From Gordius sp. MW1 (lineage: Eukaryota > Nematomorpha > Gordioida > Gordea > Gordiidae): a stretch of DNA of 64,000 nucleotides. The notes beneath the pieces are model-generated. The model had not been told where the DNA came from. It made no database searches and worked only from the letters and a program-made list of their open reading frames with translations. Of the stretch, positions 3,065-62,030 are shown one piece after another. The DNA lies in contig OZ038533.1 in NCBI GenBank assembly GCA_964036665.1, positions 2,652,001 through 2,716,000 of the forward strand, in the 5' to 3' direction. A program made the position numbers and the translations under genes. Every line of letters starts with the position of its first letter. Position 1 is the first letter of the stretch.

Positions 3065-3635
3065 ATGACGTTAGAACCAGATTATTGTAAATTGGAATAG
3101 ATATTCCTAAAGGAATTTGATTCTATTAATGAAAATATAGAAGACTATTTGGATTATGTGGACGCACTAGTGTTGTAAAAAACCAAGGGTTTCTATTGGT
3201 TGCCTGCAAGCGTTGGCGTTTTTTTTCACCCAACCTTTTCAGTGTTAGGTGAATTTTCTTGGGAGGGCTTTGGCGTTTGGCGTTTTCGTAAAAAACACCC
3301 AAAGCGTTTTGGGTGTTTTTTTTGGGGGCACCTTTGGCGTTTAGGTTTGGGTGTATTAAAGAGCTAAAGGGTTTGGGTGGATAATATTATTAACCTTTTG
3401 GTTTGGTTCTGGTCGTTTTGGGTTGGGCATGCAAATATATCAATTTGTTTATATTGTTTATCATATTTGTGTATTTAGATTTAGGTAATGAACTTTTAAT
3501 TTAAGAAAATAAAAATAAATGTATCATGACGTCACAATCTAGTAAATTCAGTAAATTATAATTAATTATTATGCATTATAGAAGTAGGTAGTGAATTAAT
3601 ATGTTTTATTTATAAAAAAAAATTTGTGAAGATTT

Positions 3636-19685: not shown

Positions 19686-20770
19686 TTTTTTTTTTTTTTT
19701 TAAGTTAAAAATCTTTATTAGGTTAAATCTATATATATAAAAAATATAAAACACGATCAATAAATAAATAAATAAAAAGCGTGACTACTCTTCATCTTCA
19801 TCGAGGGCCAGAGGCCAGGTGTCGGAAAATGCCTTATAATTGTATTTGGCAATTTAAAATTCCTATTTTTTGGCGCAAAAGAAAACTTGCTGAGTATTTT
19901 CCTTCGGGAGATCTTTTTCCTATCAATTTAAAGAAGGCTAATGCCTGTTTGCCAAAAGTGGCGGAACATGAAGCCACGATAGGGATAAAAATTTTAGAAG
20001 GAATTATATCACGGTATTTATGAGTTTTGCGTGCTTCCGCTAGAGCTAACGGGTCAGCGTTATTGTTAGAGGGTGCAAATACGTCGATGCAGGTAAAGTC
20101 CCAAGATAGGAACTTACCGTCATCCCATGGAATTGTGGATGTTCCATTGGGGCGCATTCTACCCTCAAGAGTGGGTTCTGATGGTTCGAGAATGGAAGGG
20201 AAGCCGGCTTTTAGTAAAGCGGTTTGAATCAAAAGGTTGATCTTTTGATGGCGAATGAAACGGAATTTGTTAAGTTTACAATGTAAGGGGTGGTGGGCCC
20301 AAACATCCATTTGTTTCTTACAATTTTTACAAATCAATTGCTTGCAAATTGGGATCCCCAGTCTCAAGGCGATCGCATAAGTAATTTCGGGGTTTGATAG
20401 TAAGAGCCCGGAGAACTTGCTTGGAATGCATTCCAGCCATTCGTGACCAGAGTCAGTCGTTAGTGACCTGAGATTGAAATGCTGTACGGCGTCACAACTC
20501 GAAAGTAAGTAAGCGACGGAGCGTGACACTATACTGGCATCCCAATCTCGTTGTCTGACTGAATTTGGAATAATGGTTCCTGGCATTACATTTTCAAGCC
20601 ATGATGTTAAAGCAGTTTGCGTTAAAAAATCTTCAGTTTGGGTGGTCAATTTAAAAACGAGATCTTTAACTAGATTGTAAGACGAGAGAAAAGCTACTAG
20701 GCTAATGGTCAAAGGGGACCTTATTCCTAAACCTCCAAATTTAGTTGGAAGTGAAATTGGTACTATATGT
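19686..20770 (-). mobile_element. 5'-truncated LINE, ORF2 C-terminal part (copy 1)
   Basis: A poly-T at 19686-19701 marks the 3' tail of a minus-strand non-LTR element. The 292-codon frame (20712-19834) is the region downstream of reverse transcriptase. It has the RQRDWDASIVSRSVAYLLS segment, a SGHEWLECIPSKFSGLLLS-like block, a Cys/His cluster (CKNCKKQ...HPLHC), then LEPSEP.LEGRMRPNG, IPWDDGKFLSWDFTC and FIPIVASCSATFG. Related copies lie at 50434, 56366 and 60605. The 5' break is about 210 bp upstream of the RPS15 start. Confidence 0.85.
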
Positions 20771-20983
20771 CCACAGCCATTACAAATTCATTTAAGTTTC
20801 CACGGCAATTAAAAAATTACAAGTTGGACAGGATGGACAGGGCAGGTTAGACGTTCGGACAACCAAAAGCGAGCCCATAAATTGTATAGCAATTAATAAC
20901 CGCTACTAAATAAAATTACTCATTAAAATTGTGATCGACATAACCAGCATTCATTCATCTAATTTGTTTCCTCGGTAAACATC

Positions 20984-36141: not shown

Positions 36142-39100
36142 TTATGGTTCTATACGACATCCTGTTGTGGTTACTTGGCCACCATCCCACGTAATATCAC
36201 AAACAACTCGGTTGTTTTCGTAGTCAAGCTCAGCTACTTTACGTTCCGGATTGACCACTATCTACAAATTTTAGGCACATCAGCAATTACTTTTATAATT
36301 ACAGCGAATATTTATGCTCTTTTCTATAATTGAACGTTATTTAATCTAAATGTTGCAGATGTTAACTTCTATGATATTCACATTTTAATAGGCACAATGT
36401 CGTTAGATCTTAGTCTTTCTCAACTCATTATTAGAGAATGTTAATGTTAAAAAATGAAGGAATATATATAAACCCCCTTTGTTTCAATTTTGATAATTCG
36501 TTAGACAAAAATTTTTATTTCTGCATCCTAGGGTACATTTATATATCAATTTCAAATTACCTAAATGGATCATTTAAGGATTAAACTAAATTTCATTGAT
36601 TATTTTATATACAAAGTTCTTATAAAACTTTATTATCTTAATTTTACCTCTAGTTTATACTGGCCAGTGGGTAAGTCAGTTATATCTACCCATTGGCAAT
36701 CGATGTCATAACGGTAAACATCTATGCAACCTGCCGAAATGCCTTGGCTGCCGGCATCTCGACATTGATAAGCTGGAAATACGTCGTACTTACATTGAGC
36801 ATCTTCTAAGCAAAAACTTGCTTTGTGCCCGTTGGCTAATGAAGTACCACTGGCATCAAGCACTTTGTAGGTGGAAAATACTTCAAAACTGTGATAGTGT
36901 CTGCACAATATCGATTAAGGAACAAATTCAAATATACTCTCTATTTATAAACTTAGGGTTGTTTATGTATTATATAAGGTAAAGTTAATATTTATAATTA
37001 GAGAATAAATATATATGTATATAACATTTAAATAAAAATGTAATATTGGGTTAGTAAAGGCAGCTAGCATTTCATTAAATAAGCGTTTGGCAATGTCGAT
37101 GAAGAGCAAAACGTATATGCGTTAAGCATTATAAGCCATTTATTCAGGCGTAGCATAATATTGAAACAGCAGAAATTGAAATATGAGCTTGGTAATGATG
37201 CCAAAGTATGGTCTAAATAGCTTTAATTCAGTTTATGAAGCTCAAAGAAAGCAAATAATTATTACTGATGACATTCATGCCAGTCCCACATCACTTGGGG
37301 CAGAGTTGGACTAAAATCTGCCGTACCAATATTGGCAACGGCGGTGGTAAATCTGAGAAGATTTCTGTATGAACCACCCCATCCTAAGATTTTATTATTT
37401 TGGTTATTAACTAGAGAAAGTACAAATTCTAACTAGCTTTAGTCTAAACTTAGTCTTAACAATAGTAATGGTGGATGGAGAGGGATGTGTGTTAGTAAGT
37501 CAATATTATGCTAAAAATGTAATATAAATTGAGAATCTACTCGTGGCATTGGTGCCAATCCCATAGTTTTTTGGGTAAATACGGTAAAAAATCGGCTTGC
37601 CCTATATTAGCCATGGCTAAGGTAAACCTCAGCAATTTTCGTTTAGCCAATTTCCAATTTTCTGTCAAAAAACCATTTGTTAATAATTCGAACATTACTC
37701 CTTTATAGAGATTGTTAGTTTTGTTAACAATAATGAACTTAAAATCAGGAATCTTCAATCATCCTCATTTAGCATACATTAAAATTATAAAATAAAAGTT
37801 ATTGTTTGCTTTAAAATAGTGAATAAAATTTTTAATAATTTTACATTTAAAAGGTGATTAAATTTATGTGTTTATAAATACCCATATCATTTTGAACTAG
37901 GTTATAAGCAGAACTTGAGACACAGTTTTCCTCCATGGCGCACGTTAATTCTGCTAATGAACGGGCGTCAACGTGAATTGTTTGCTCTACTTCTCTATAA
38001 TCAACTACCAAATCTGGCAATTCTAAACAATGAATTCAATAAATACAATTTCAAATAATAAAAAGCTTATTATTGTGGGGATTTCAAGTATTGCGCTCAA
38101 CCTTAGTTCTGACATAATTTGTGCTGTCGAAGTAACAAGTTAGGAAAACATATGAATTTATCTGTACAGACCATCAAAAATTATAATTTAGAAGTATATT
38201 TTAAGGATTTGACCGAAGCGTCAAAAACATACCTTTAATTAAGAAGCTATTAAGGAATAGAAAAATCAATATAATCATAATGTTTAGTTACGTTGCCCAC
38301 AGACGACTCCCGCTATATTAGTTGCACCAGGACAAGACATTTGGGCTCCTTTTTTAAAGCGGCAAGAGCTCAAATGTGGCTCAGAGCCCTGGCAATTGAT
38401 TCCACTGAGTAACATAGGTCCGTATGAAGCTCCAAAAGAGGTTCCCTATAAAAGATGAATACAGTTTCTTTCCCCTGATTCATATAACATTGCATTCAAA
38501 TATTATTTTAGCATTGGAATGTCTCAATTTAATTACACATATCAGTTTTTGTATTTTTATCACTGTGAATTAAAAAATAAATCGTTGTGCCAAAGTGGTT
38601 GTCTTTATATAAATAGTCTTGAACAGCCTACGTTTCAGATTGACATTTCTAAGTATTCATTTAGGAGACTTGGTAAAAAACATAATTCGTTATATAAATC
38701 GGAATATCATATGAGTCAAATTTAAATTTAAAAATTAATGATCATGAGTTATGCTTATACTTGTAACGCTTGTTCGGCATAGCCGAAGCTTAACATTCGA
38801 CAAATGACATTGGCTTCTGTTGCAGTCCATGCATCACCACAAATAGTTCCCCATGGCCCGTTAGCCATACTTATTTCGACGCGTCCACTGAAAGCATTAC
38901 CGCCAGCCAATCTGAGTTGCACAGGTCCCATTTCATCGTACTAGAATTATCAAAAGTTTGTTATTAATCACTCCTTTGCTCAAACGTAATATAAATAACA
39001 ATGGGAAAAGACTTTAGATTTAATTTTTGATGGAGCCAAAGTATTTTATATACATTTCAAAAAATGCTTAGTCTAAATTTGCGATGAAAGTTGCAAGATA

Positions 39101-42100
39101 ATCAATATTTTAACCTACATGAAATATATAGAGTACAATTATTTTTTATGTTATCCAATAAAAATCGGGTGCTCTTTACCCCTCCTTGGTAATTGCCTTG
39201 GTCGTAGTAAGTTCCACTTAAATCTCCTTGAGCCACTGGCCTCTGTCTAACAAATCGGCTTGAGGGTGGTATATAAAGGCTCCGATTTGAAACAGCTTGT
39301 GTCGGACCTCGAGTTGACAGCAATTGGGTATTAAGGTGACGGGAAGGTATCTGAGGTCTGTTAACATCCGATCCCCGCGAGGCGTTTAAAAGTCTTCGCT
39401 CTTCATCCGGACTCCTACGTCTATGATTGGCTGGCGCTTGTGAAGCACGTGATGGGTATTGGGCTACGGTTCGGAAAAATTCGTCTATTTCCGCCATTGT
39501 TGTGGGTGGAAATGCGGAAGGTTGCCTCGTAACGGTGAGAGTATTTTGGGAACTTGACACGAATTGTTAAAACATTATTTAATATTTATTATTAAAATTG
39601 TCAATCATCATATTTTTGAAATAGTTGGTCCAAAAACAATTACAAATTATTTTTTTACTAAATAATTTTATAAAACTAAGAGCATAATAAAAAGGTCCCG
39701 TAAACATTCAGACTATTTACTTCTGAGAGATATTATGATCGCAAATTTAGTATATAGACCCGGAATAACTATAAGATTGCAATTGAAAGCCTTATGGTGG
39801 GAAAATTGAATATACTCTAGAGAAAAATATTTAATAAAATTTCTTTAAAAATTTAAGGGACAATTGTATGAAGATTTTACGACCATGCAATTTAAATACT
39901 CTGTAGAGTCTTTGTCCCTTAAGTTTGAAGCTATTTGATTGGTTGACATAATGCCATTATCGTTGATATGATTAGCTGGATTTTTGCACACTACGCCGGC
40001 CGCCTCGCTGATTAGGCAATTATTTTTGCCCCAATGTTTTCTACAATTTTTGATCTTTTGTCCGTCGCAAGCATGAGATCGACATTCCATTAGGCTAGCC
40101 TCCTTGCCGTCACAATTTAGATTATCCAACCAATATTCTACAAAATATCATTAGTATATAATATGAAAAATGTAAAGTTAACACTTTCATAAATTTATAT
40201 AAAGTATGATAGAAGCTTAGATTAAAATTTTACAGACTGGTGAACAGCTGGTAATTTTTAATTATCTGCCATATCTGTGACACATATTAGTAAACCAAAC
40301 GCTAGGTGACTTAAAATATTTATTTTCAAATAGAGGTATTAAGCTTATATCTTAGTGCCATCTATAATGTATTTAACTCAAGCTATTAATTTAATAGAAT
40401 TTCTCATTAAAAATGGTCACCTATGTTAATTTATAAATTTTAATGCCACAAACAGCTATTCGCCAATCTATAGCATTAGTAGTCTATAGATATAAGTTCT
40501 AACCTATATAATGTCTAAAGATGCCAAACGGCCTACCCGTTTTTGCCTAGTTTGCTTTTCCTAAGCCATAATCATGCTTTTAAATCGTATATACGCGCAC
40601 AAGTGAATTCAAACTTTGGTAATTGTTTTCATAATTTTATTTCATTTTAGCCAAGCTTATATTTAAGAAACCTAAAAGTTCATGCTTTGTGACAAGCTTC
40701 TAAAGTCACATTCCAAATCCTAAACACCAAGTGTAAATCCACTTATAAAATATCGTGCTAGATTGAGGTAATTTTTGCTAGTTCAACCCCTATGTTAAAC
40801 TTGAATGTAAATTGTTTACAATTTTTGAACATTTTACCAAATATTAAACTTCTAACTAGAATTCTGTTCAGGTCGCTCTATGCGCCCTACCCATTCGAAT
40901 CCGCCCTGAAGCAAACCCAAACATACACTCATAATTTTTTTTATTAATTCATTTATAGAAATAAAATGTTCTACGGCGTGCATAATATAGTTTTTCACTT
41001 TGTCGATAATCATTTTTTATTCAAATTGTATAGTTTTATAAATTTAATAAAGTATGTATATAAACATTTTAATTGTGATACTTTCTTAATTTGCGATTTT
41101 AAAAAGCACAGGGCAGGGCTGGGGCCAAAAATAATTTAAAAACTCGGGCTCGGATTGGGCCTCAACAAATTAGAAAGGAACATCCGACTTGGCCGTTAAA
41201 AACCTAGTTTACAGGGCTTTATTTATAACACAATCATTAAATATAAAATTACTAGCTGTGCCCGGCCAAGCGTTGCTTTGGCTCAGTCCTTAAGTGGTTA
41301 AATAAGTATAAGCTATTAATAAGACTTATCTAAAATGGGGTCATATATGAAATAATTTATAATGTGAAAGGTCCGAATGATTTTATGAACCCACTATTTT
41401 TAGTATATATTTATATAATAAGACAAACCAAATGCAAATTCTGTTTTAGTCATCAAATCCGACTAAAATTAAATGTTTTGTAAAAAATTGCTTATTAATG
41501 CTGTTACTTATTATACAATAATACCATTATTTTATTTTTCTAGTTAGCTGATTTGTTTGAAATACATTTTCTTTAATATAATAAAATAATTAATTGAAGG
41601 GTGGATAATTATTAAAAATATGCTTCTATGATCGACCACGTGATAATAATGACAAAACTGCATAATTTAAATTTTATTTATTTAATGTAAATAGTCTGTT
41701 AAACCCCAATAATTTTAACCGTATACTGTAACATTTTTATTATACTTTTAAATATCTAATTCGAGAAAACTTCAGCTTTGTATGTATGACGTCATTATTG
41801 TATATGCTGCTATATATGAAACTGGACGGGAAATGTCAGATATTTTTAAAACAAAAAGGTATTTTAGGAATCTAAAAAAGCTATTTTACCCCTGGCCTAT
41901 CTGGGCATCTACGGCTAAATTTTCGCTCGAATCGGATCTGAAGTTTCAGAATTTAGCCCTTTTTTAAAACCAAAAGGCCGAGAGATGTCCGATATTTTTA
42001 AAACTAAAAGGAATTTTAGCAATCTGAAAAAGCTATTTTAAACCTGGCCGCCCTGAGAACCTACGGGTAAAGTTTCGCGCAAATCGGGCCGGTAGTTTCA

Positions 42101-45100
42101 GAATTTATTCTCATTTAAATATCTCATTTAATAAAAATTAATGATAGATCAATAATGACATTTATATATAAATAGCATTTACTCAGAATAATCAACGTTG
42201 GACTATTTTATATTACATTTAAATTATATATACTTTCATCTTTCTCATTTAAAATATCTCATTTAATGATTATGAGAAAAATTCATCTTCTTCACCTATA
42301 TATTTTCTCAATAATCTATAATTTTATTTATTTCAGTTAATTCATAAATTTTATGTTGTCACCGTTAAGAAAAGATGACGTTTAAGAAATTTAATTCATA
42401 AATTTTATGTTGTCTTGTCACCGTTAAGAAAAGATGACGTTTAAGAAATTTAATTCATAAATTTTATATTGTCACCGTTAAGGAAAGATGACGTTTAAGA
42501 AATTTAATTCATAAATTTTATGTTGTCACCGTTAAGAAAAGATTACGTTTTACAAACTACTATAAGTGATACACTTTTACTACAGAACTGTCTGTATATT
42601 CAAATTTTCAACGAACGCGAGGAAGTGCGTTTGATTGACATTTTATTGAACGTCAAAACGCATAAAACCCAATATCTCGAAAATTAAAAGGAATTTTAGA
42701 ATTCTGAAAAAGCTATTTTACCCCTGGCCGCCCTGGGAACCTAGGGGTAAATTTTCGCGCGAATCGGGCCGGTAGTTTCAGAGATTAGCCCTTACATACA
42801 TATATACATACATATATACACTTTACTTTATATATATAGATAACCTTTCAACTACATAAATTGCATTGATTCACTTGTTGCAGTATAATATGCTTTTCTA
42901 TCCATAGAAAGGCAAGAAAAGCCGGGCCGAGTCCACTGTCCGACCAAGAATTTAAATTTTTGGGCAGGACCGGACGGGTACCCTAACAAGCTGCGCGCAA
43001 CTCGAGCTTAATGAGATTTTATAGTGTATTATTTTGTTTTCGTCTATTATTTTGCCCCCTTTTTAACTGATTGTATAATTTTTACTCGTCGTAGTTCTTA
43101 TTAAAAAAATCGAGAATCAGATTAAACTTTAGAAGTGTTTGGGTGGGCCCGGGCGAGTAATTTAGTATTATAATGGAACCGGGCTTCGGGCAAAAAATTA
43201 TATAGAAATATAACTTATGATAGTGAACGAACACTAATAAATAGCAAAAAAAGGGAGCCAAAATAAGTTATGCAAGCCTCTCAACCATTTTGCCCAAATA
43301 CTCCACCATAATTCAAAACTATGCATAAAATATTTGTTAAACTAACCAAATTGTATTATGTACAACGGCTTATATTTAATATATAAACCAACTTTCAAGA
43401 AATATTATTAAGTTTTGTATTAAATATTGCAAATAAGGTTTAAAAACAAGATATTTGCTAATTAGTGCGTTGTAAAGGGATCCGGAAGAATTTAAATTTC
43501 CTTTTTCAAACTTTTTTATAATTAAATTCAAGACGGCCTAATCACATTCTTTTCAGGTCTCTATCATATTTAATAATAATAATATTCACATTTAAATATC
43601 ATATACATGAGCGTAGCCAGCTTTGGAATAAAAGGGAGGCAATAATGATTTAAGGATGTTTAGGGAGGGGCAAAATAAACATTTTTTAAAATTTTAGCCA
43701 TAATTTTAATAAATTTCAACAATTTTTTATATTTAGAGGGGGGCAGCCGCCCCTCCCTGCCCCCCCCCCCTTGGCTACGCCCATGATCATATATCACAAC
43801 ATCTATTAACGGACCATTTAAGGTTTATGATGACCTTTAAACTGGGCAAAAGAAGGTTATCTTTCAAGAGGTTACATTTTTGATGGTAGTGAATTCAACG
43901 ATATGGGTCAAGATCATTCTAATGTATGTGTGTTAAATTTTATTGTACACGTACTATTTATTTTTTACCACATTATTTAAAAATGAAATGATTTGCGTAG
44001 TAGAACTACCATCTTTAAATATGGCCTCGAAGTTTTAATAGCAACTCGTCACTAATGTTATAATTCTTTTTTTTTCGACTTGACTTTAAGTTTTGGATTA
44101 GTAAGTTTTGAGCCAAAGATTTGGCCATCCTTATATTTCTTATCTATTCAAAAAAAATAATTGAAAATTAATGCCGTAATTTTATAGGTTTCCAAATAAG
44201 CTTTCATAAAAATCTGTTTCTATATAAGTATAGCATATATGCTAAATTAACCGTGGTTTTCTAAAATATGTTTTTAAGAGAATTATTAATAGTTTTTTTA
44301 GTGGTACTAATGATTAAATATGAACTAATATGTATATTTTCACACATTTTAGCATAAGTTTGGGTTAAGAGATGGGTTATTGAGAGACACCGTTATTTAC
44401 TTAGGACATGAGCTACTTTCACTTATAGAGAGGAAGAGTTTTATTAGTGTTATTTTTAAGTGTTTTACCTTTATAAATTAGATATAGCGGAAGAAAGTCA
44501 TTAAAACTTAGGGCAACTAATAGACTGAAATATATCTTCCAAATGTACGATATATTAAACATTTAAAAAAAGCTTCCACGAAGAAAATTGTGAAAATACA
44601 TGCATAAAAACATATTTTTTATAGATTTAAATTATTGAAGTAGATTATAAATTATTGTTAATTAATATTTAGTTTCATATTTTTATTAATTTCTCAGTCA
44701 AAGTAACACCTCATTCATGCGTATAACTTTTAGCCATTTTATTGTTAGTAATGTTGGTTATACTTAAATTATTGTTACTGTTCATCCCATATATAAAAAC
44801 GAAATTCACTCGTTTTTCCATCTCAAAATGTTTATTGTTTTGTAAACTATTTTTTCTTAATTTTTTATAAATAGATTGAGAGTTGAAAAGTAATGTGTTA
44901 CAGTCTAAACCGTTTTATTGCAAGGCCTTGGGTCTGGAAAAAATTCGCGATTAACCGATAATTCGCGATTAAACGATGGAAATAAAAGTAATATTACATT
45001 ATATTAAATATTCATTTCTTACGCTTCGCAATAAAACGATATCTTATGTAATTATCTGGTTCATTTAAGACCCGAAAATGTTTGTGAATATCTGACATTG

Positions 45101-46662
45101 TACTATTAAGCGATTTGTCAATAAACAATGTTTTTATTAATATTATCGTTTAAAAAAACAAAATGGCGGTTAACTTCGCGATTAAAAGATTTTCGCGATA
45201 ATCCAATATGCGATTAAGAAGTTTCGACTGTACTACTTTGAAGAATTTACATTACACAGGTCGGTAATAGTTAATAGATCGGCAAATAAATATTTTAAAA
45301 ATACTGATCAATTTCATTACTGCCCCTCCCAGTCTCCCTTTAAAAAATCAAATAACAACTAAAATTATTTATTATTTAAAGTTTTAGTTAATTTTTATAT
45401 TATAACAAAATGTACATTAATTCAGCTGAATAACTTGGCAAAATCCCTACATACCAAACCAAACCCTACAAGGCTTATTGTAATGTTCCCCTTGCGAGTT
45501 ATTTAAACGCTCGACCATGAAAAGGTGCTGTAAACGACCCCATGAAATCATTTAATAAGTTAAGATGCACACACAACAATAACTATGTTAGAAAACATTT
45601 AAAAGATTTGATAATAATTGCCTGGGCAAAGGCGGGATTTAAATTATGATAAGGAGGGCAAAATGATGATTTATTACATTTTGGCAATATTTTTATTAAA
45701 TACTAAAAAATATCTGAATTTAGGAAGGCGGGGGTCGGTCATCCATCCCTCTTTGCATCTCTGTGGCTGACTCAATTGAAATTCCTATTTATAATTCATT
45801 ATAGTTTCTGTAACCCACTCAAAAAATAAAGTCTCACCCTACCATTTTATTAAACTCATGGCAACTCAGATTGAAGATGAAGCTCATAAAGACAATTTTT
45901 TACATGATACCATAAAGTAATATCAAGTTAGCAAACACTAAGCCCATAGCGCGGATATGATATCATTTTATACTTTGATTAATCGCTAAATTGTTTGTGT
46001 TATGACCATTTTGATCTAGGACGCATAAAATGAAGTGTAAATAAAGGTGAAGAAAGTATGATAGGATATAACTAACTTGTAACTATGCCATATTCGGAAT
46101 TTCTGGTGGGAGTTTTAGCAGATTCGAAACCTAGTTGGCGACATACCACTTGCGCCTCTTCTAAGTCCCATTCATCGTCGCAAATAAAACCCCAAGAACC
46201 GTTAAGCCAAATTTGTACGTTGCCCTGATATATTGTTCCAGTGTTAGGATCGGCTAGACTACCCTCTCCACCTACCAATCTGATTGCACCGTTTTTGTAA
46301 CCTCCCCTTTGAGCACTGATCGGGGTTAGATTGTTTAGAGATGTTATAATTAAGATGGCTGCCGCAATTCGCTGCTTATTTCCCGCCCAGACTAGATGAC
46401 TGCGAGTCACGGTATTGGGAAAAGGATTTTGAAGGAGACGCAAAGTTGACAGGATTAGGGTAGTAGTTATGATTGCGATGTTGCGGGCAAAAAAAAGTAA
46501 TTTTGAATCACAGGGTAACTGGGCTGATTTGTGAATAATATAATTAGGCGAGTGTCCATTTTTCATAATCACCGGTTGGCAAATGTCATCTGCAAGACAC
46601 AGTAGAGTTTCACTAGTACTACTAAGACGTCTTGACACCTCTAAAGGTCCACTAATAGTCAT
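36142..46662 (-). CDS. LOXL: Lysyl oxidase-like protein with two SRCR domains
   Basis: Copper amine oxidase that oxidises lysines to cross-link collagen-like matrix; expected to be secreted or on the cell surface. Minus-strand exons in order: 46662-46077, 40137-39900, 39552-39180, 38940-38761, 38445-38292, 38022-37882, then either 37661-37541 or 37383-37266, then 36900-36648 and 36261-36142 (TAA). All junctions keep phase. The product is 721 or 720 aa. SRCR1 is at about 125-245, a basic low-complexity linker at 262-400, SRCR2 at 403-508 and the catalytic domain at 512-721. Copper motif WDWHQCHEHYH is present. The quinone-cofactor residues are Lys624 (GHKASFCLED) and Tyr660 (VYRYDIDCQW). The domain ends GCRIEP. 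Two hydrophobic stretches (55-77, 98-118) precede SRCR1. The true N-terminus is uncertain because an acceptor lies upstream at 46690. Confidence 0.9.
37266..37383 (-). other. LOXL alternative copper-site exon, version b
   Basis: 118-bp exon with acceptor AAAATCTTAG and donor GTAATA. It has exactly the same phases as version a. It encodes LLRFTTAVANIGTADFSP and WDWHECH, giving CHQHYH after splicing to exon 8, the more usual LOX sequence. A 157-bp intron separates it from version a. Confidence 0.88.
37541..37661 (-). other. LOXL alternative copper-site exon, version a
   Basis: 121-bp exon with acceptor TTTTTGACAG and donor GTAGAT. It enters after 1 nt of a codon and leaves after 2 nt. It encodes LLRFTLAMANIGQADFLP and WDWHQCH; the first codon of exon 8 completes HEHYH. 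It lies upstream of version b in gene order. Confidence 0.88.
41262..42835 (+). mobile_element. Unclassified repeat element in LOXL intron 1
   Basis: Starts ACTAGCTGTGCCCGGCCAAG, contains three modules with GCGAATCGGGCCGGTAGTTT (41832, 41982, 42671) and ends in ACATACATATATACATACAT microsatellite DNA. This plan resembles short non-autonomous retroelements in invertebrates. Boundaries are approximate and it may be a nest of related copies. Confidence 0.45.
42340..42545 (+). repeat. About 55-bp tandem repeat, four copies
   Basis: The unit has TTAATTCATAAATTTTATGT, TGTCACCGTTAAGAAAAGAT and GACGTTTAAGAAAT. Copies are nearly identical, so expansion was recent. One copy has an extra TTGTC. Confidence 0.85.
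43605..43795. repeat. GCGTAGCCA-family MITE with G/C-tract ends
   Basis: GAGCGTAGCCAG on the left and a C tract then TTGGCTACGCCC on the right form imperfect inverted ends around an AT-rich core. Related pieces lie at 22005, 26365, 33110, 34740, 45625 and 51925. Confidence 0.6.
44901..45230. mobile_element. pogo/Tigger-type MITE
   Basis: Ends CAGTCTAAACCGTTTTATTGC and GCGATTAAGAAGTTTCGACTG are imperfect inverted repeats flanked by TA (44899-44900 and 45231-45232). CAGTC ends with a TA duplication fit the pogo branch of Tc1/mariner. Internal GCGATTAA repeats occur near both ends. No transposase. Confidence 0.7.
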
Positions 46663-56365: not shown

Positions 56366-58732
56366 GTGAATTTTGCGAGACCAATAAATTTTTAACAGCT
56401 GTTGGGATTTCGCCATCTCCAAGAGATTCATTTTTGAGTCCTCCACAAAAATCATATGAAGAAATGGTTCTCAAGCAGTCTATCATCTACTTACCTATCG
56501 CCCTCGCAACTTTCGGATATTGCTTTTAAGTCATCAGACATTCGAGATGCCATCTTATCCTTTCCTATGGATTCTGCAGGTGATCTCGACGGCATAAAAC
56601 CAATTTTTTTTTAAAAGATCTTATAACAATTGATAATAATAACTCTCCATCTTACTAGGCTTACTCACCAAATTTTGTAACCTTTTAGTCAATGGGAGTA
56701 TACCTAAAGAAATAATGCCCATAGTCTTTGGAGCTAAGCTTTTAGCTATAAGGAAGGCCGACAATTTAGCCAGGCCTATCGCTATCGGCAGTGTCTTTTA
56801 AAGAATTATTTCTAAATTAATTTGTTCGGCGATCAAACCCATATTGACCCCTACTTTAATTCCGCATCAACTAGGCTTTGGGGTCAAAGGAGGGTGCGAG
56901 ATAGCTACCCATGCCGCACGCTTAGCCCTGGAACACCTCCCTCTGGGTGACTCCTTTATAAAACTGGATTTTAAAAATGCTTTCAATAGCATTCGCTAAA
57001 CAGCCTTCATTAACAATTTTATCAAGGGATTTCCCCAATACATCAACTACATCATTTTAAGTTACGGATGTCCTTCGATTTTGAAATTTGGAGAATTCTT
57101 CCTTGAATCCGCAGAAGGGATCCAACAAGGTGACCCCCTAGGCCCCTCTTTATTCTGCTTGGCTATAAATCACCTAATAAACGAAATTAACAAACATTGT
57201 AAACTCACCCTTAATGTCTAAAATCTAGATGACGCCGCTCTTGTTAGCACCCCTCACAACCTAGTCCAAGCACTAGATGTAATACATGCTTTTTTCCCCA
57301 CTTTGAATTTATGTTTAAACGCCTCTAAAAGTGAAATATATTCTGACTTGGATAATATTCACCCAAAGTTTTTTGACTTTGCTAATTAAAAAAGACAATA
57401 TGTATGTTTTAGGAGCACCTATCGGGGGCCCTGAGTGCCTCAAAAATTTTTAGACAAAAACCTTTCTTCTTTAAAAATCAAATTAGACACTTTTAAATCT
57501 ATGCCCTCCCATCATTCCTTTTACATTGTAAAAAATTATTACAATATTAGCAAAATTTTATTCTGCTTCCGCTCCATGCAAGCTTTTTTATTTAAAGATG
57601 TTTTACACAATTATGAACACTTTTTTAAATCCACACTTGAATTAGTTTTAAATATTGCTTTTAACACGAATACTTGGCTTCAAGCCACTCTTCCCACAAA
57701 ATCCGGCGGTCTAGGTATTCGCTCCCCAACTGCGATTTCCTTAGCCGCCTTTATTTGCTCCTCCATTTCTTTTAAATAATTCATTTATAAAGACCTTGTC
57801 CCTTTCTCACTCAACCCCTCTATCAATCAAGCCTTATTTCTATGGAATGAGAATGTCAATTTGGGAACAATCATATGCCCAAAAAGATTTGGATGCAAGT
57901 TTGGTGTCGCGGTCCGTTGCTTACCTTCTCTCGACATGCGACGCCAAACAGCATTGCAATCTTAGGTCATTGGCTTTCGACCAATCCGGTCATGTATGGC
58001 TTGAAGCTTACCTTAGTAAATTTTCGGGAATGTCTTTAGAGAACCCTACCCTGTTCTTCAACATAGCCCTCCGCTTGGGCTGTAAATACACGTCCCCATA
58101 CCCCTGCCGGCTTTGTAATTCACTTGTAGATGAGGAAGCGCGTCACCCTCTGCATTGTAAATTTAACAAAAGACGGTATATAGGCACCAAAAAATAAATA
58201 CACTGCTTCAAGCTGCCCTCAAACCAAAAGTTCCTTCCATCCTTGAACCGTCAGAACCCTGAGGGGCGGATGCGTCCTGACGGTTCGTCACTTATCCCAT
58301 GGGACAAAGGCCTTTTCTTAAAATGGGACTACACCTGTATTGACCTGTTTGCTCCCTCCGACGATACTCACGACCCCCTAGGAACGGCAGAGCATCGTAA
58401 ATCCTTAAAATACTCAGCTTTATCGGAAACCTCCATTTTTATTCCTATCGTCTCGTCGTGCTCAGGGACGTTTGGGAAGAGCGCATTAAATTTTTTTAAA
58501 GAACTCAATAAACGCTCGCCCTAAAATATCGAATAGTTTTTTACTAAGACAATCAATTGCCATTGCGATTGCTAAATCCAATTTTTATTCTTTGATGGAT
58601 ATAATGCCCATTCTTAAAGAAGATGAAGAAACGGATGATGTGTTTTAATCATTTTTTTTAATGTTTTCGTTCTTGTATCTATTTATTAATTCTACTTTAT
58701 ATTTAATACTTTTTTTTAATAAAGCATGTTTC
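56366..58732 (+). pseudogene. LINE ORF2 with reverse transcriptase (copy 3)
   Basis: The longest member of this LINE family here. RT motifs in order: SPSQLSDIAF...PMDSAGDLDGI (56505-56600), ARPIAIGSVF, LGFGVKGGCEIATH, SFIKLDFKNAFNSI (about 56960), GIQQGDPLGPSLFCLAI (57118), and DDAALVS, the catalytic box with its first residue changed (57228). The C-terminal region follows in frames 57435-57779, 57796-58197 and 58243-58524, with the same Cys/His cluster (CRLCNS...HPLHC) and WDYTCIDLF block as the copy at 19686. Multiple stops. The 3' UTR ends AATAAAGCATGTTT without poly-A. Confidence 0.85.
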
Positions 58733-60604: not shown

Positions 60605-62030
60605 AATTATAATTAAAAAGCGTCGCATGTGTCATCTAATAAAAGAGGCCAGCTGTCGGCCAGGGATTTAAAATTGTACTTGGCGATAAAGATACCAATT
60701 TTTTGTTTAAGTAAATAATTTGTGGAATATTTAGTGGGCGGGCAGCGACGGCTGATATCTTTAAAAAGCTTAATGGCGGCAGGACCAAAAGTCCCAGAAC
60801 ACGAGGCAACGATAGGGGTAAAGATATTAGAGGGTAGGAGGGCCTGGTATTTTACCGTTTTGCGGTGTTCGGCGAGGGTCAGAGCATTGTAGTTCTGGTT
60901 AGAGGGGGCGAAAATGTCTATGCAGGTGAAATCCCATTTAAGGGGTAGACTATTTTGCCAAGGGATGAGGGTAGAGCCATCTGGTCGCATCCTTCCCTCC
61001 AACGAAGGGTCTGACGGCTCTAAGACGGACGGGATATTGGCTTTTTTAAAAGGCTTGGATAAGGCTATTCACCCTTTCGTGCCTTATGTATTTAAATTTA
61101 TTGTAAAGGCAGTGTAGGGGGTGCCTTGAATAAATGTCTATGTTCTGGGAGCAGTTGCGGCAGGAATATTCCTTTGAATAAAGAATTCCTAGTCTGAGGG
61201 CAATGGAGTATGCTAGCTCTGGGTCCTCCAACATCAATCCAGAAAGTGAGCTAGGATAAGCTTCTAGCCACTCGTGACCCGATCCATCAGAAACCAAAGA
61301 TTTAAGGTTAAAGTGCTGGCGGGCGTCGCAACTCGATAAGAGGTAATCAACGGAGCGCGATACGAGGCCAGCATCCCAATCCTTTTGTCTTGAGGTTATG
61401 GGGAAAGGGATCCCTGGATTGACGTTAGCGGACCAGACATCTAGAGCTTGCACAAACGAAGGATCCTCACTTGTTGTGATTAATCGGTCGATCAAAGCTT
61501 GGGCGGATTTATACGAAGAGATAAAAGCTGCTAAAAAATTTAAGGTAACTGGGCGTATGCCTAAGCCGCCAGCTTTGGTAGGTAATGAGGCTTAAAGCCA
61601 CGAAGAAGTACTGAATTTGATATTAAGGATGGCTTCTAGCGTGTTTTTCATGAAGCTATCGTAACTTTTTAAAATCTCGGGTAATAAAAAAGCTGATGAT
61701 GACCGGAAGCAGTGTTGAATTTTTGAGATATTAAAATAATTTTTGACTATATAAAACGCATGATGTTTTGGGAGGGTATTAAGAATTTCTGTCTTCGAGG
61801 AAAGAGTTGATAAGTGCCTATGTAAAAACTCTATTAAGGCGATTTGCCCACCTATTGGTGAGCCTAGATGAGTTAAACTCTTCATTTCAACTTTTAAAAA
61901 AGGCTTAAAAATTGGAAATAAGTCTGTATCCGGGCACTGATATATCTCGCATTTAGAGAAATTTAATTTCAGGTTTAGGATACCTTCAGAAGTTATAAAA
62001 TTCTGACACTTCGTCTGCAACATATGATCT
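60605..62030 (-). mobile_element. 5'-truncated LINE (copy 4) abutting RNASEH2A
   Basis: Minus-strand relative of the copies at 19686 and 56366. 62023-61592 covers the end of RT and thumb (NLKLNFSKCEIYQC, HLGSPIGGQIAL, FYIVKNYFNISKIQHCF). 61495-61046 has RQKDWDAGLVSRSVDYLLS and the Cys/His cluster. 61002-60613 has EGRMRPDGS, LKWDFTCIDIFAPS and FTPIVASCSGTFG. Two frame breaks. The 5' end lies only about 84 bp before the RNASEH2A start, head to head. Confidence 0.85.

Follow-up and report, generated by a model that had tools for sequence, protein, structure and literature searches.

A duplicated exon in a lysyl oxidase gene

The window, that is, the whole stretch of 64,000 nucleotides analyzed here, contains a lysyl oxidase (LOX) gene of the SRCR-LOX type, modeled on the minus strand with approximately 705 codons. 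The spliced model comprises 706 codons with exon A and 705 codons with exon B, the terminal stop counted, and has no other stop. Two SRCR stretches lie N-terminal to the LOX domain (Table 1). The first coding exon was defined by an open frame, an SRCR match at C7:2698090-2698230, and a donor (CAA/GTTAGT) that gives an in-frame junction; the junctions upstream of SRCR 2 are modeled, that between the second and third coding exons only tentatively. The first coding exon carries a long N-terminal extension before SRCR 1 (within 46077-46662) with hydrophobic stretches recognized by eye, and the extension of the Gordionus protein P0161 is also long. The first long intron of the gene harbors a 54-nt tandem repeat of approximately four copies (42337-42550). 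Elsewhere in the window, three open frames (19837-20787, 61049-61591, and 57745-58194) have in common a VSRSVxYLLSxCDAxQH-like stretch and, by eye, look like a repeated mobile-element protein.

Table 1. Coding exons of the modeled LOX gene and candidate elements in the introns around the exon pair (window positions).
Feature	Position	Strand	Remarks
First coding exon	46077..46662	-	N-terminal extension and first half of SRCR 1; start ATG inferred
Exon	39948..40137	-	Second half of SRCR 1; donor TAT/GTCAAC is a weak guess
Linker exon	39180..39552	-	5' border tentative
Exon	38761..38940	-	First half of SRCR 2
Exon	38292..38445	-	Second half of SRCR 2
Exon 6	37882..38022	-	LOX domain begins here; exits in phase 1
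9-nt complement of A-B arm, 6-A intron	37768..37776	-	Weak, not significant
ACTAAC, 6-A intron	37714..37719	-	Possible STAR-protein site or branch point
Exon A	37541..37661	-	121 nt; alternative LOX segment ENWKLAKRKLLRF...WDWHQCH(E)
Candidate stem arm, A-B intron	37500..37513	-	TAGCATAATATTGA; perfect 14-nt complement of 37151-37164
ACTAAC within TACTAAC, A-B intron	37491..37496	-	Adjoins stem arm
Exon B	37266..37383	-	118 nt; alternative LOX segment GWGGSYRNLLRF...WDWHECH(Q)
Candidate stem arm, B-8 intron	37151..37164	-	TCAATATTATGCTA; pairing with the A-B arm loops exon B
ACTAAC within TACTAAC, B-8 intron	37050..37055	-	Motif match
Exon 8	36648..36900	-	Copper ligands 2 and 3 (HYH), LTQ Lys (GHK), LTQ Tyr (DVY)
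Last coding exon	36142..36261	-	Contains stop codon

An earlier note on this DNA had described A and B as tandem alternative exons of a lysyl oxidase-like enzyme, and its account of their structure was reproduced in all particulars. Both exons have GT-AG borders, are entered in phase 1 and left in phase 2, and can be joined upstream to the exon 6 donor at 37882 and downstream to the exon 8 acceptor at 36900. The 6-A-8 and 6-B-8 joins are open, whereas inclusion of both exons leads to a stop after 23 out-of-frame residues of B and direct joining of exon 6 to exon 8 leads to a stop after 21 residues of exon 8, so that exactly one of the two exons is needed. The Pfam Lysyl_oxidase domain (PF01186) is complete with either exon (positions 1-204 of 204; 287 bits with A and 291 bits with B), and the match shrinks to positions 1-46 when both are skipped. 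The assignment to the LOX family, of the SRCR-LOX type, is borne out by the complete domain that either A or B restores and by the two SRCR stretches ahead of it.

A whole-genome search (211.8 Mb, 12 contigs) with the Pfam LOX model detected A and B each and yielded at least nine exon-level matches, located at two places on contig 7; no third copy of the switched exon was present among these at least nine matches. With a profile of the segment built from 107 of 120 homologous proteins (the other 13 did not parse), A scored 75.9 bits, B 64.3 bits, and the corresponding exon of the second LOX gene of the genome 83.8 bits. The likeness of the two predicted exons is far beyond chance. They are adjacent, internal, homologous, of like length and the same phase, and bordered by valid splice sites; the pair thus shows, at the level of sequence, the features expected of mutually exclusive exons, as had been proposed.

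Several observations concern other parts of the genome. The first 10,000 bases of contig 12 (L013), which has the best COX1 match, contain ten hairpin-forming pairs of inverted repeats, seven of them perfect, with arms of up to 108 nt. Many COX1-like copies occur on other contigs (C8:2829490-2830827, C4, C5, C1, and C3), including one that is nearly full length (408.2 bits vs. 410.5 bits for C12) and four partial copies on C4 with equal scores, two per strand; nuclear insertions or an assembly effect are candidate explanations for these extra copies. Perfect inverted repeats have been reported in the mitochondrial genes of four nematomorph species (PMC6649704), and the repeats of contig 12 resemble these.

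Constraint, active site, and relatives of the two exons

The two exons share 24 of 40 aligned residues (the first, extra codon of A left out) and 69 of 120 aligned bases. Codon positions 1, 2, and 3 are identical at 22, 32, and 15 of the 40 codons, respectively, with a significant contrast between positions 2 and 3 (Fisher p = 0.0002), and the NG86 estimate of dN is 0.41, whereas dS is saturated and not computable. The W, W, H, C, and H of the WDWHxCH motif are present in A and B alike. The preservation of 24 of 40 residues in spite of saturated third positions is the pattern expected of two copies that have long been under coding constraint, and A and B look as if both had been held under it.

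The human LOXL2 enzyme binds copper through His626-X-His628-X-His630 and forms LTQ from Lys653 and Tyr689 (PMC9180022). Alignment to the LOXL2 structure (PDB 5ZE3), with the numbering given there, revealed all of the HxHxH copper ligands and the LTQ lysine and tyrosine in the window gene. In the A form, ten cysteines of the LOX domain also align with 5ZE3, as do these catalytic residues, by eye. The earlier note had stated that all copper-ligand histidines are kept in both exons. The WH and CH histidines do occur in each; only the first of the HxHxH ligands, however, lies in A or B, and ligands 2 and 3 as well as both LTQ residues are encoded by exon 8. With one of three copper ligands inside the switched exon, the label "copper-binding core" was too strong.

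The split last codon of the switched exon determines which amino acid separates copper ligands 1 and 2: A gives Glu and B gives Gln. The exons also differ in charge: A is basic, with 7 Lys/Arg and 4 Asp/Glu, and B has few charges, with 2 and 3, respectively, compared with 6 and 2 in the paralog. At one site all 107 parsed homologs, mostly from arthropods, have Lys, but B has Gln; vertebrate segments mostly have Arg at this site, and some have His (by eye). The two forms would thus be expected to retain the catalytic residues while carrying unlike charges on the segment leading to the copper site, and we infer that both are active enzymes.

The second LOX gene of the genome (L009) is located on contig 7 at C7:4.418 Mb, 1.73 Mb from the window gene. 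In its model, exon borders and phases in this LOX region match those of the window gene, but the switched exon is present as a single copy (118 nt). The LOX domain of this conserved paralog was 89% identical over 210 residues to P0161 of Gordionus sp. m RMFG-2023, the next highest value among the 166 proteins compared being 64%. Gordionus belongs to the horsehair worms (phylum Nematomorpha), and together with the inverted repeats of contig 12 this makes it almost certain that the window, too, comes from a horsehair worm. In the C-terminal part, the paralog and P0161 are identical at 119 of 132 residues, the window gene (B form) and another Gordionus protein, P0205, at 98 of 131, and the window gene and its own paralog at only 69 of 131, so that hairworms have two LOX lineages that predate the split of the two worms, with that of the window gene evolving faster. 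Its branch was very long (3.88 changes per column) in a quick tree computed without the columns of the switched exon and with 4 of the 120 homologs left out, so the placement of the window gene is unsure because of long branches.

P0205, an unnamed Gordionus product of 133 residues from an annotated gene model that begins inside a B-type exon, was obtained with an A/B alignment search (best 120 of 1059 matches). In two other searches, nothing closely orthologous to the window gene appeared among the best 120 of 347 and the best 120 of 355 matches; the former used a 322-residue query and could not return proteins above approximately 563 residues, and the latter used the full-length model. By comparison of the predicted proteins, P0205 is the ortholog of the window gene. 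It opens with MWDWHECHQHYHSFEVFSTY and starts with the end of a B-type exon (MWDWHECHQHYH) joined to exon 8. Three positions of this exon end distinguish A from B (M/L, E/Q, and Q/E), and P0205 matches B at each of them; the B-type exon therefore probably predates the split of the window worm from Gordionus. Over the nine exon-end residues, B agrees with Gordionus at nine and with A at six, which hints that A, too, arose before this split, although the stretch is short. In another unnamed assembled protein, P0263, a LOX segment (DYRQ..LTCAYDEGCLSS...VQN) faintly resembles the window gene and is accompanied by an apparent unspliced intron.

These comparisons bear on an alternative in which only one of the exons is used, its partner being a silenced relic so far spared from decay. 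It would accord with the absence from B of the lysine common to the parsed homologs and with the acceptor of B, the lowest of nine by a crude pyrimidine count (7 of 17), with that of A close at 8 of 17. Moreover, A-type sequence is absent from the lone Gordionus fragment, which is too short on the upstream side to reveal any. Against decay stand the residues kept in both exons despite saturated third positions, including those of WDWHxCH, the intact frames of both exons with all four splice dinucleotides, and the B-type exon end in Gordionus. We consider the relic explanation unlikely, and A and B most likely constitute a genuine mutually exclusive pair.

Intronic elements and candidate control of exon choice

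The 14-nt complementary arms in the A-B and B-8 introns would form a stem that is predicted to hold exon B in a 335-nt loop and to draw the donor of A towards exon 8. When the two introns were shuffled with dinucleotides preserved, pairing of this length was reached in 38 of 20,000 cases and in none of 200 in a smaller run. For the cluster as a whole, the predicted minimum free energy was -196.5, compared with -172 ± 7.7 for 40 shuffles, and the pairs of the stem had probabilities of 0.84-0.98 in this fold. In a control on real sequence, the same geometry was placed at 3067 other positions along the minus strand of the window, and 61 of these (7 separate blocks) had a 14-nt inverted match; after a complexity filter the count was 27 of 3067, and at the paralog locus 0 of 393. 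The window counts place the chance rate of such a stem nearer 1-2% than 0.2%.

The best duplexes between whole introns were no better than those of shuffles (16, 96, and 40 of 100 as good). Neither the candidate in the 6-A intron that would compete for the A-B arm (matched in 86 of 500 and 23 of 300 shuffles) nor a candidate close behind exon B (matched in 358 of 500) reached significance. A repeat origin of the stem arms was rejected, the A-B and B-8 introns each matching only themselves genome-wide. The 14-bp intronic stem is a candidate control element and a lead from one genome; of the two sides that a two-way switch would need, only one was found.

Each of the three introns of the cluster contains one ACTAAC, an arrangement seen in 1 of 2000 shuffles; the looser ACTAAY occurs in all three introns in 64 of 2000 and is thus weak. 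Elsewhere, ACTAAC was found once in the 7.5 kb of the six other introns of the gene and was absent from three introns of the paralog. In C. elegans, ASD-2 acts on let-2, a type IV collagen gene. ASD-2 is a STAR protein that governs mutually exclusive splicing in this nematode, according to a title cited in PMC3771449, and UACUAAC suits the branch point and the STAR-protein consensus alike (PMC2905418). Among the nine acceptors of the gene model, B has the lowest pyrimidine count and A is tied with the last exon; with both among the lowest, splice-site strength says little about which exon is the default.

An exact 14-nt direct repeat also occurs in the A-B intron (37512-37525) and the B-8 intron (37033-37046), near TACTAAC in both. 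It was reached in 55 of 20,000 shuffles but in 209 of 3067 real placements, and we assign it no role.

Two mechanisms that operate without a stem were considered. Steric exclusion by a short intron was rejected, since the A-B intron spans 157 nt and the paralog model includes an intron of 62 nt. Spliceosome geometry, with a branch point too near the donor of A, is a sub-hypothesis compatible with mutually exclusive choice. The TACTAAC of the A-B intron would place the branch adenine at a distance of 48 nt from the donor of A, in line with this idea, yet approximately 108 nt and seven other AGs separate the motif from the acceptor of B, making it an unlikely branch point for B, and the short paralog intron argues against geometry as well. 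We therefore regard this mechanism as weak and distinctly improbable.

The early stops produced by both wrong combinations, together with an A-B intron that is spliceable by length in view of the 62-nt intron of the paralog model, would also fit a control by poison exons, in which the exons are spliced freely, double inclusion or skipping gives decaying RNA, and mainly the dose of the enzyme rather than its type is set. A pure dose switch would have no need of the LOX-type sequence kept in both A and B, and a stem that loops out B fits choice better than free splicing, leaving this explanation very unlikely. An assembly artefact or allele difference, for which the sole point is that a single assembly was examined, can practically be dismissed given the agreement of A and B at just 69 of 120 bases and the uniqueness of the A-B and B-8 introns in the genome.

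Interpretation and relation to known systems

We consider it likely that a tandem exon duplication gave this hairworm gene the interchangeable exons A and B, one of which is chosen in each LOX transcript. The duplication, in the second, fast-evolving LOX gene of horsehair worms, would have created two versions of the approach to the copper site. Splicing would proceed from exon 6 to either A or B and on to exon 8, with double or zero inclusion breaking the frame. Both exons would be used in RNA, giving active enzymes that may be unlike in surface charge and in the amino acid separating copper ligands 1 and 2. Pairing of the A-B and B-8 arms may, with moderate support, loop out B and favor A, and opening of the stem, for which a STAR-type protein acting on the ACUAAC motifs is one possibility, might permit B. 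As for purpose, we can only guess that the cross-linking enzyme could in this way be fitted to differing collagen matrices or life stages.

The arrangement resembles that of Dscam, 14-3-3 zeta, Mhc, and MRP1, in which homologous exons in tandem, similar in length and phase, are accompanied by complementary elements in the introns; in 14-3-3 zeta, Mhc, and MRP1 the partner lies in the downstream intron, as in the window gene (PMC6071210). Competing intronic pairings are described there as the mechanism of several insect mutually exclusive clusters (PMC6071210). Compared with docking/selector clusters, in which one element has two competing partners, a single strong pairing was found in the window gene.

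The architecture, SRCR domains followed by a complete LOX domain, is that of the LOXL2/L3/L4 superfamily, including human LOXL2 (5ZE3). In contrast to these relatives, the window gene has a duplicated and choosable copper-site exon and a very long branch. Among the literature matches listed, LOX splicing is represented mostly by the human LOXL2 delta 13 form, which arises by skipping of exon 13 (PMC11259713) and is described as catalytically inactive (PMC9547286). It is an example of alternative LOX splicing by exon skipping, not by choice between homologous exons. The view of the earlier note that no LOX family member with such an exon choice is known agrees with our search of the open-licence literature, in which none was found; this is not proof of absence. 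That literature likewise yielded no report of mutually exclusive splicing of CG4402 and none of a lysyl oxidase in Nematomorpha, and lysyl oxidase is unmentioned in the main text of two papers on mutually exclusive exons (PMC3228551 and PMC3303723).

The A/B pair is a fresh case of a known splicing arrangement, in a family for which none was found described. To our knowledge, no other LOX changes its catalytic domain by choice between two homologous exons, and this gene, if the proposal is true, would be the first. The cuticle of hairworms is tough and made of collagen fibres, and LOX enzymes are collagen cross-linkers. A fuller reading, in which a lineage-specific hairworm LOX has its copper-site approach swapped by exon choice under control of the RNA stem, yielding basic and nearly neutral forms suited to distinct collagen matrices or life stages, is offered tentatively as somewhat less likely than not.

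Nematodes are the sister group of horsehair worms. This nematomorph genome has two LOX genes, one of them fast evolving, whereas none was found in nematodes, according to PMC4448552. The exchange of approximately 40 residues beside the copper site, with the catalytic residues kept, would provide a natural experiment on how substrate choice or cofactor formation is tuned in LOX enzymes.
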